A DNA stretch of 64,000 nucleotides from Corallococcus macrosporus DSM 14697 (lineage in GTDB: Bacteria > Myxococcota > Myxococcia > Myxococcales > Myxococcaceae). The notes beneath the pieces are model-generated. The model made no database searches, had not been told where the DNA came from, and was given only the letters and a program-made list of their open reading frames with translations. The stretch lies in assembly GCF_002305895.1 (NCBI RefSeq), contig NZ_CP022203.1, positions 7,350,001-7,414,000 of the forward strand, given 5' to 3'. This document shows positions 1,618 through 4,112 of this stretch, in pieces (position 1 is the first letter of the stretch; the number at the start of each line of letters is the position of its first letter). A program made the position numbers and the translations under genes.

Positions 1618-1983
1618 TCAGCCGCGCGGCTTGAACTGCGCGGCGAGCACGCTGAGGATGCGGATGGACGTCCGGTCGAGCTGCTTCGCCCGGCGCATGA
1701 GCCGCCGCAGCTCGGCGGACTCGCCGTAGTCACTGGGCGGCTCCGCGGCCCACTTCACCTCCTGCACGGGTTTGAGGCCCAACGCCTCGTCCGCGGAGAT
1801 GGAGAGCACCGTGCACAGCCGGCGGAACGTCTGGATGCTCGGCAGCATGTGGCCGCGCTCCAGCCGGCCGTAGACTTCGCTCGCGATACCGATGCGCTCC
1901 GCCACGTCTGCCTGGGTCAGGTTCAGGCGGGTCCTTGCAAGGCGGGCCGCTCCTCCAAGGCGGGATGCGAGAGTCTTTTCCAT
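1618..1983 (-). CDS. XRE-family helix-turn-helix regulator, second exon (gene split by a group II intron)
   Basis: The visible body is 121 residues from 'MEKTLASRL'. Residues about 18-70 form a Cro/C1-type HTH ('LTQADVAERIGIASEVYGRL'), followed by a C-terminal tail of about 50 residues unlike common XRE proteins. The internal ATG at 1983 has no ribosome binding site of its own because the group II intron ends three bases upstream. Joining base 3999 to base 1985 puts nine extra codons (MPTSQVIST, ATG at 4026, preceded by AGGAAG) in frame, so the intact gene most likely starts there and needs intron splicing for full-length protein. It ends 9 nt from the convergent DUF790 gene. Target unknown. 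Confidence 0.8.
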   Translation of the reverse strand: MEKTLASRLGGAARLARTRLNLTQADVAERIGIASEVYGRLERGHMLPSIQTFRRLCTVLSISADEALGLKPVQEVKWAAEPPSDYGESAELRRLMRRAKQLDRTSIRILSVLAAQFKPRG

Positions 1984-2007
1984 TGGTAGAGGGGTGGCGC
2001 GGTACCG

Positions 2008-3441
2008 TCAGCGGCCCGTTTCCACCCTCCTCCTTTCAAACCGTACGTGCGGTTTTCCCGCATACGGCTTAACGAGAGTGTTGTCGTGCAGCATGCACGG
2101 TTTCGGGTAGCGAATCGTCCCATGCAACCGGTGCAGGCCTCTTTCCCAGAACCACGCTCGATTCCATGCGTCCGCCTGGCCGGCCCGCAGCTTCCTGCCT
2201 CTGCGTTTCACCATGAACTGGTGCAGCCGCCGGAAGACGTAGGAGTCGAGTTGATTGAACTTTCGGGCCGCGTTCCCGGTGCGGAAGTAGTTGCCCCATC
2301 CTCGCAACACCGGGTTCAGGCCGCCGATGATTTCTCGGACATCCTTCACCCCGTGCCGCTGTCGGCTCGTCAGCTCCTTCACCCGAGCCCTCACCCGCTT
2401 CATGCTCCGCGCTGACGGCCACCGCTGGAGGTAGTAGCGGCGCACTCCCCGCTGCTGCCACAGCTTGCCCGACATGCGCTTGTGCAGGTGACAGCCCAGA
2501 AAGTCGAAGCCTTCCTTGCCCTCGGTGAGTTCCACTCGCCGCGTCTTCTCCGGGTGCAGTTGCAGCTTCAGCCTCCCGAAGATGATGCGCACCCTTCGTT
2601 CGGCCTCCTCGGCAGCTTCGCGGCCTTTGCACAGCACCACGAAGTCATCCGCGTAGCGCACCAGCTCGCCCACCTGCGCGCACTGCCGCTGCCACACGCT
2701 GTCGAAGAAGTGCAGGTAGATGTTGGAGAGCAGCGGGGAAATCACTCCCCCCTGCGGTGTCCCCGAGACCGTCTCGGAGTACCGGCCCTCCTCCACCACT
2801 CCCGCACTCAGCCACTGCCTCAGCAGCTTGAGCACCCTCCGGTCCGACACCCGCCGCTCCACCCGCTCCATCAGCAGCTCATGGTCGATGCTGCCGAAGT
2901 AGTCGCGGATGTCCGCGTCGAGCACGTGGTGACACCCGGCATTGACTGCCTCCCGGATGCGCTCCAGGGCCTGCACCGCGCTTCGACGTGGCCGGAAGCC
3001 ATACGACGACGGAAGAAAATCCGCCTCGAAGACAGGCTCCAGCACCAGCTTCACCGCCATCTGCACGATACGGTCCTGCACCGTCGGAATGCCCAGCGGC
3101 CTGAGTTTCCCGTCCGCCTTGGGAATGAACCGCCTGAGCACCGCGGGCGGTTTGTAGGTTCCTGCTCGCAGTACCTCGCCCAGCTCCTGCACCAGCCGCT
3201 GTGCGCCGTACTGCTCCACCGCCGCCAGCGTGACTGAATCCACGCCGGCAGCGCCCTTGTTGCGTCGGACCCGCTGCCATGCTTCCCACAGGACGTCACT
3301 CCGGTGGACTCGGTCATACAGCGCATGGAAACGGCGCTCCCGGCACCGCTTGGCTGCCACGAAGAGCTTGCGCTGGAGTTGTCGAACTTTGTCGGTGGAC
3401 TCTGGCCCACCGGGGGGATTGGAGCCTTCTTGGCGGCTCAT
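2008..3441 (-). CDS. ltrA: Group II intron reverse transcriptase/maturase
   Basis: A 477-residue protein if started at 'MSRQEGSNPP' (ATG 3441); the frame stays open to 3972, but that stretch is intron domain I-III RNA sequence. RT motifs in order: 'FIPKADGKLRPLGIPTVQDR', 'SSYGFRPRRSA', 'SGTPQGGVISPLLSNIYL' and the catalytic 'YADDFVV', then a maturase X domain ending 'GWGNYFRTGNA'. No C-terminal HNH endonuclease is seen, so mobility probably relies on ssDNA targets such as replication forks, as known for endonuclease-less lineages. Unusually, the ORF runs through domain V and stops (2010-2008) inside domain VI. The catalytic aspartates are intact and no frameshift is seen, so the element may still be active. 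Confidence 0.92.
   Translation of the reverse strand: MSRQEGSNPPGGPESTDKVRQLQRKLFVAAKRCRERRFHALYDRVHRSDVLWEAWQRVRRNKGAAGVDSVTLAAVEQYGAQRLVQELGEVLRAGTYKPPAVLRRFIPKADGKLRPLGIPTVQDRIVQMAVKLVLEPVFEADFLPSSYGFRPRRSAVQALERIREAVNAGCHHVLDADIRDYFGSIDHELLMERVERRVSDRRVLKLLRQWLSAGVVEEGRYSETVSGTPQGGVISPLLSNIYLHFFDSVWQRQCAQVGELVRYADDFVVLCKGREAAEEAERRVRIIFGRLKLQLHPEKTRRVELTEGKEGFDFLGCHLHKRMSGKLWQQRGVRRYYLQRWPSARSMKRVRARVKELTSRQRHGVKDVREIIGGLNPVLRGWGNYFRTGNAARKFNQLDSYVFRRLHQFMVKRRGRKLRAGQADAWNRAWFWERGLHRLHGTIRYPKPCMLHDNTLVKPYAGKPHVRFERRRVETGR
2037..2070 (-). ncRNA. Group II intron domain V (catalytic hairpin)
   Basis: A 34-nt element on the minus strand with AGC at the base of the 5' strand (the catalytic triad), a GAAA tetraloop, and paired arms GCCGTA/TACGGT and GCGG/CCGC separated by the usual bulge. 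It matches the domain V consensus closely. It is overlapped by the last codons of the maturase reading frame. Confidence 0.88.
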
Positions 3442-3998
3442 GCCCTCGCTCTTACCTCCCGCCCAAGCACCACCCAAGCAGGGGCCCTTCCCTCCGGGCG
3501 CGTTGTCTTGCACGCCCCTCGCCGGTACTACGGCCCCCTCGGACTCCCGCTGCGCTCCCCACGCTTTCACCTTCGGCTTATACGCGGGGCCCTGCCGCGA
3601 CGACGGCCGCGCAGACGGGTCTCTCCTGTTCCCCACCAGACCTTGAGCACGTGCCACGCCCCATACCCCGGGGAGCCCCGCTGCTTCCCATCCGGACTCG
3701 TCCGCAGCGGACCTGGCCTTCGCCGCGACATGCTCGGCTCGGCGCTCCCATTGTGTATCTGTCGAGGCGGCAGGCTTCACTTGATGTTGCGGCCCGCGCT
3801 CTTGCTCCCTCCCGAATGGAGGCTTTTGACGCCCCGCTGTGGCCTGCCGCCTCTCGGCGGTCGGCTGGGGCCTGCTACCGGGCACTCCGGTGTCTACCCG
3901 GACGGGACTTTCACCCGCCGGTCTGGTGGAGCATGGACGTGCTCCTCTTGCTCGTCCTTCAGGACGCACCATGGGTCGTTAACCTACCGGGTCCGCAC

Positions 3999-4026
3999 AT
4001 GTCGATATGACTTGAGAGGTTGGCAT
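3999..4026 (-). other. First exon (5' end) of the XRE regulator gene
   Basis: On the minus strand, ATG at 4026 opens nine codons plus one base and stops at the intron boundary. A good Shine-Dalgarno, AGGAAG, lies seven bases before the ATG. The last six exon bases, CGACAT, are the presumed IBS1 that pairs with EBS1 in the intron. Joined to base 1985 across the intron, the frame runs T|CA ATG GAA AAG without a stop. The upstream 4027-4112 stretch would then hold the divergent promoters of this regulator and of the receiver-like gene at 4113. Confidence 0.7.
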
Positions 4027-4112
4027 CCAAGAACTTCCTGAGTAGTCTTGTAGGTAGGTAACCTCGTGCGTTTGGCCAACCACACAGGTCTCACCCTGCT
4101 GACGCGAAGAAC

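Follow-up and report, generated by a model that had tools for sequence, protein, structure and literature searches.

Between positions 1,618 and 4,026 of the window, that is, the whole 64,000-nucleotide stretch of Corallococcus macrosporus DNA analyzed here, a group II intron lies on the minus strand immediately ahead of a regulator gene, which raises the question of where exactly the intron begins and ends and what it leaves of the gene that it has entered. A sequence-only reading had placed the 5' boundary at 3998 and the end of exon 1 at 3999, in such a way that the intron would split the regulator after nine codons and splicing would yield a protein starting with MPTSQVIST. The group II intron itself is beyond dispute, as both its conserved core and its domain V are recognized by Rfam at the gathering level, and it is arithmetically true that joining 3999 to 1985 gives an open frame, whose ATG is moreover preceded by AGGAAG. 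However, the other copies of the intron and the related genomes place the boundary elsewhere.

When the intron so delimited was used as a query against the same genome (8.97 Mb, single contig), four further near-perfect copies were retrieved; in none of them are the first 24 or 25 bases of the query present, the match starting only at base 25/26. Each of the five copies measures 1986 nt from GTGCG to CCA, four being identical and the fifth differing by one base, and every copy (5/5) is arranged as C-ATG, intron, then ATG and an open reading frame. The five downstream genes are unrelated to one another: one encodes the HTH regulator, one an amidase, one a conserved protein with no Pfam match, and one a weakly SUKH-like protein, and the remaining one is a short ORF. 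An orthologue of the regulator was found in 26/26 species searched of the same genus, and in the 13 species for which the region was read in the right orientation, the sequence runs ...GGTAGGTTAACGACCC ATG GAAAAG with small variations, the supposed first bases of the intron being simply the DNA before the gene. The occupied site in the window reads ...CGACCC ATG|GTGCGTCC ... CTCTACCAATG|GAAAAG. Empty sites carrying a single ATG exist in congeners for four of the five copies (the window copy, L002, L003, and L004).

The 24 nt from 3998 to 3975 occur in congeners that have no intron but not in the four other copies; they are therefore exon DNA, and the intron extends from 3969 to 1981, behind the native ATG. 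The comparison with intron-free orthologues, which had been named beforehand as the test that could refute the nine-codon split, goes against it: these proteins start with MEKTL, and the MPTSQVIST frame is upstream DNA that ends in an in-frame TAG or TAA before the real ATG. A split at 3999/1985 therefore has next to no chance of being right. The proposal that splicing would restore the gene in frame survives with the junction moved to ATG|GAAAAG. The splice register would be set by the logic of EBS1 and GUGCG, the DNA alone permitting a slide of up to 3 nt. The features of the locus, all on the minus strand, are the following.

3981..3986, minus: -10-like element TAGGTT (TANNNT), 8 nt ahead of the native start codon (from family sites and intron-free congeners).
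3973-3970, minus: IBS1, CATG.
3970..3972, minus: native ATG of the regulator, the last 3 nt of exon 1 (from intron-free congeners and EBS1 covariation).
1981..3969, minus: group II intron of 1989 nt, GTGCG ... CTACCAATG (Rfam; boundaries from the five copies and empty sites).
2008..3972, minus: 654-codon ORF that starts at the host ATG, crosses the ribozyme, and continues as the RT-maturase.
3782..3920, minus: conserved ribozyme core, Rfam RF02003 (group-II-D1D4-4), gathering-level match with E 7e-14.
3729..3732, minus: EBS1 loop CAUG, partner of exon positions -1 to -4 (covariation across sites).
About 3126-2485 and about 2403-2179, minus: RVT_1 and GIIM, respectively (Pfam).
2034..2072, minus: domain V, Rfam RF00029, gathering-level match (the Rfam match spans 2072-1986).
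1981..1983, minus: intron-borne AUG at the intron 3' end, a replacement start codon that tracks the intron subfamily.
1618..1980, minus: exon 2, XRE-type HTH regulator from codon 2 (M-EKTLASRL...; Pfam HTH_3 4e-11).

The native ATG (3972-3970) thus doubles as the first codon of the intron ORF, and the regulator gene, counted with the intron-borne AUG (1983-1618), follows directly downstream of the intron. Domain V and the maturase are intact, as had been supposed: RVT_1 is matched at 4e-37 and GIIM at 8e-17, the intron protein (IEP) scores 421 bits against NCBIfam TIGR04416 (cut-off 300), and the fold of domains V and VI has a z of -4.6. No endonuclease domain was found in the IEP with Pfam and NCBIfam. 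The 5' end, GTGCG at 3969 and common to all five genome copies, follows the GUGYG rule of group II introns. The 3' end departs from the AY rule, as CUAC closes domain VI but the mobile unit adds CAAUG; a 3' AY is a common feature rather than a strict requirement, and known variants such as class B introns with domain VII deviate from it. Around the gene, the approximately 80 bp upstream of the regulator (3973-4053, minus strand), which include the MPTSQVIST mini-frame, are near-invariant in the genus, more so than their surroundings, which suggests an operator-rich promoter. Next to the regulator on its downstream side, and read from the opposite strand, comes a gene of the DUF790 family (397-1608), whose end adjoins the regulator in congeners as well.

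Genome collections holding one genome per species were searched with an alignment of the IEP, which gave 80 loci. In all, 69 distinct insertion sites were pooled, TANNNT playing no part in the selection of sites. The family extends over Myxococcota, Actinomycetota, Planctomycetota, Acidobacteriota, and Pseudomonadota, and the nearest named relatives of the window intron, by IEP search and tree, are in Myxococcota. As judged by comparison of these sites, members insert directly behind a start codon, in the sense orientation, with TANNNT 6 to 8 nt upstream. The order TANNNT, 6-8 nt, ATG/GTG, intron is found at 62/69 sites; of the seven exceptions, one does have TANNNT, at a spacer of 9, and for two or three the site may have been misassigned. 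At the family sites, information is confined to three elements: the letters T, A, and T of TANNNT, the start codon, and position -4, where C is preferred. A -35 element or any other conserved target position was looked for at these sites and not found, nor is a Shine-Dalgarno sequence visible there. As for the background, when every ATG in 464 kb of this genome is counted, 0.3% have TANNNT at that spacing; among start-like ATGs of the same genome, taken with a crude start predictor, the figure is 4/328, so the arrangement is uncommon. The downstream genes of the family, among them ilvE, metF, a mycothiol transferase, and an etfB-like gene, appear undamaged. The first intron base, G in the window copy, is T (TCGCG or TTGCG) in L076, L080, and L111 and in L088, L090, L092, L094, L097, and L108, which is unusual for group II introns.

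Leaderless bacterial genes have been described as marked by a TANNNT located about 12 bp ahead of the start codon (PMC3160421); in M. tuberculosis, the same motif accompanies mapped transcript starts that lack a -35 motif (PMC3898074, the text of which does not name ilvE). The host side of the sites shows the same features, a TANNNT about 12 bp upstream and no Shine-Dalgarno sequence; the target sites therefore carry a leaderless-promoter signature, and the mRNAs appear to be leaderless. Taken as a whole, we consider it probable, at roughly 0.82, that the window intron belongs to a widespread lineage of mobile, endonuclease-less group II introns that home to the start codons of genes with a leaderless-type promoter.

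Two other accounts of the box have to be weighed against a promoter that guides insertion. The intron RNP might itself read TANNNT as a DNA motif, with neither promoter function nor RNA polymerase involved, in keeping with the usual behavior of group II introns, whose homing sites of 20-35 bp are recognized by contacts of both RNA and protein (PMC4028801, PMC4424553). However, TANNNT is the core of the sigma-70 -10 element, its middle is free, and its spacer to the insertion point varies by 2 nt; moreover, it is conserved in intron-free orthologues. At the L003 gene the box is kept in more than 20 intron-free species amid variable surroundings, so it belongs to the host gene and not to the intron. 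We regard direct reading by the RNP as somewhat unlikely, though it is the strongest of the competing accounts. Alternatively, the intron could enter many start codons, and only insertions at leaderless promoters would persist, being spliceable or tolerated, since restoration of a leaderless mRNA would make them nearly neutral. This is distinctly improbable, as very recent copies are already all at TANNNT: the five of this genome, and likewise all ten near-identical GTG-type copies of Nannocystis poenicansa. The latter species (L235-L264, G119-G121) holds about 15 copies, in co-existing subfamilies of which one is directed to GTG starts and others to ATG starts, and is a natural experiment in target partitioning. 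Furthermore, the start codon of the same orthologous gene has been hit in two species, Nannocystis pusilla (L081/L243) and N. poenicansa (L189/L264), by two introns that differ in EBS1 type, CAU and GTG-type, the latter judged by its 3' end.

The start codon is also what EBS1 recognizes. The consensus of the EBS1 loop is CAYN and, as comparison of the sites shows, it pairs with the start codon and one upstream base (N-[A/G]TG), at exon positions -4 to -1. Standard pairs are present at -3 in 51/51 sites and at -4 in 48/51, and 0/4000 shuffles were as good; with one site retained per near-identical intron, P is 0.001 at -3 and below 0.0003 at -4. No pairing signal was detected from -5 outward in the 51 sites. 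Insertion at sites that match EBS1, as expected of a group II intron, is thus borne out by covariation at -3 and -4. The sequence-only reading had picked out the loop that is indeed EBS1, but its pairing of ATGTCG with CGACAT does not hold, the partners being CAUG in the loop and ...CAUG at the exon end. Loops with CAC occur at GTG sites only (12/12, in three lineages: myxobacterial, Nannocystis, and Actinomadura), and those with CAU at 52 ATG sites and, through a U-G wobble, at 4 GTG sites.

A second start codon stands at the other end of the intron, where CUAC at the end of domain VI is followed by CA-RUG in nearly all members and by CU-AUG in one. It could be thought that the codons on the two sides form a 3-bp target-site duplication, as would arise from target-primed insertion by linear intron RNA, given that empty sites have one start codon and occupied sites two, and that GTG/GTG pairs are seen at 11 sites. 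This is highly improbable, as the four CAU introns at GTG sites all carry a 3' ATG, L099 has a 5' GTG and a 3' ATG, and the orthologue of the gene downstream of L081 starts with GTG. For the GTG present on both sides at L039 and in Nannocystis, duplication of the target start codon was rejected on the strength of the same CAU introns. The 3' codon, AUG or GUG, follows the intron subfamily and not the target; these mixed sites and the L081 orthologue indicate that it is the intron's own, and the downstream frame therefore keeps a start codon after insertion. Comparison of members thus shows an intron whose own AUG or GUG provides the host frame with a start codon, and whose IEP frame, in many of them, is open from the captured codon.

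This captured frame contains 0 stops over its first 540 nt in 22/42 non-redundant introns, against averages of 5.4 and 6.1 stops in the other two frames. Most Actinobacterial members lack such an open reading from the host codon into the intron ORF, so the open captured frame is a trait of part of the family. Translational coupling between the stop of the IEP and the downstream ATG was also weighed and set aside, given that the spacing from stop to ATG varies widely from member to member.

With a start codon always present at the intron end, splicing might not take place at all and the host gene might be expressed from the intron-borne 3' AUG only, all the more as a 5' exon of 3 nt seems a poor one for splicing. 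Against this stand the intact domains V and VI and maturase as well as an EBS1 maintained by covariation, although homing alone would also maintain EBS1; we think the absence of splicing unlikely. The idea that splicing acts as an on/off switch for this regulator finds no support, as the genes whose start codons the lineage enters are unrelated to one another (an amidase, ilvE, and metF are examples) and the 3'-terminal AUG gives the host gene a start codon even in unspliced RNA.

Placing the family among group II introns reveals both resemblances and differences. In the IEP tree, a 98/100 branch parts the start-codon introns from those of Firmicutes and from other relatives; only this branch was used, since L069, which has a long branch, was mis-extracted and L109 was misfiled (it also ends in CTACCAATG). 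The nearest sampled relatives outside the start-codon family are seven introns of Firmicutes (L117, L120, L121, L126, L129, L135, and L138), whose IEP is about 42-50% identical. Unlike the start-codon family, these have a canonical ...CTCTA(Y) 3' end and no start-codon target. Together with L122 and L139, they make up nine loci that lie just after a hairpin plus T-run, as class C introns do; the same nine have 5' GCGTGCC and 3' ...CTCTA(Y), unlike the class C consensus. Because the Firmicutes relatives follow a hairpin plus T-run, the comparison hints at a shift of target between the two ends of transcription units, in one direction or the other.

Class C (IIC) introns share with the window family an IEP without endonuclease and a target picked by a transcription signal rather than by a long homing sequence (PMC4424553), and the RT of the window IEP is similar to GsI-IIC and related IEPs in the PDB. 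However, the window family has a start codon with a -10 box as its target (62/69 sites) in place of the terminator or attC site of class C, and it has other boundary sequences and a start codon at its 3' end. Class B introns with domain VII resemble it in having their 3' junction beyond the canonical AY of domain VI (PMC4424553, PMC4028801), but their extension is of 50-70 nt, whereas that of the window family is of 5 nt (CARUG) and includes a start codon. Finally, the CL1/IIB1 introns with a 5' insertion form a lineage that, as described in PMC4465626 with reference to Michel 2007, includes an intron in the stop codon of Azotobacter groEL and thus likewise at a translation codon. In contrast to these, GUGCG here stands directly behind the exon, the codon is a start and not a stop, and TANNNT is required; moreover, the large 5' insertion is missing, since about 25-110 nt separate the exon junction from the start of the core motif GUGAAAGUCC in members of the family.

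These observations can be assembled into a scheme of how such an intron may live on its host gene. The transcript initiated by the host promoter would start at the captured codon or right beside it and would therefore begin with AUG|GUGCG. If transcription begins there, the 5' exon would consist of the start codon only, about 3 nt, which would explain why the pairing is as short as 4 bp. Splicing would then return the leaderless AUG-mRNA exactly, and unspliced RNA could express the intron protein, translated from the captured codon. We speculate that TANNNT is needed because RNA polymerase, in opening the promoter, would free the non-template strand for reverse splicing. In its fullest form, which we put forward as a tentative possibility, the open complex of RNA polymerase at leaderless promoters would be the landing site, with the 4-bp pairing formed on the exposed non-template start codon; the host promoter would transcribe the intron from its first nucleotides, the IEP would be translated from the captured codon, and the gene would be handed back by splicing or by the terminal AUG.

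The window intron is thus a known element, a group II intron, with a new target specificity. According to a 2015 review, bacterial group II introns have three target specificities: homing sites, terminators, and attC sites (PMC4424553). A lineage that recognizes start codons at -10 boxes would add another, and this one occurs across several bacterial phyla. Among the open-access papers searched, we found no earlier description of a start-codon-targeting intron lineage. Such a retroelement would seize the promoter, the transcript start, and the start codon of a gene while carrying with it the spare part by which the host gene stays readable. It allows a direct test of whether the transcription bubble serves as a single-stranded landing site for an endonuclease-less intron. 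Furthermore, it might give a short, retargetable EBS1 for insertion behind start codons, and its insertion sites might provide a sequence-only marker for leaderless genes.
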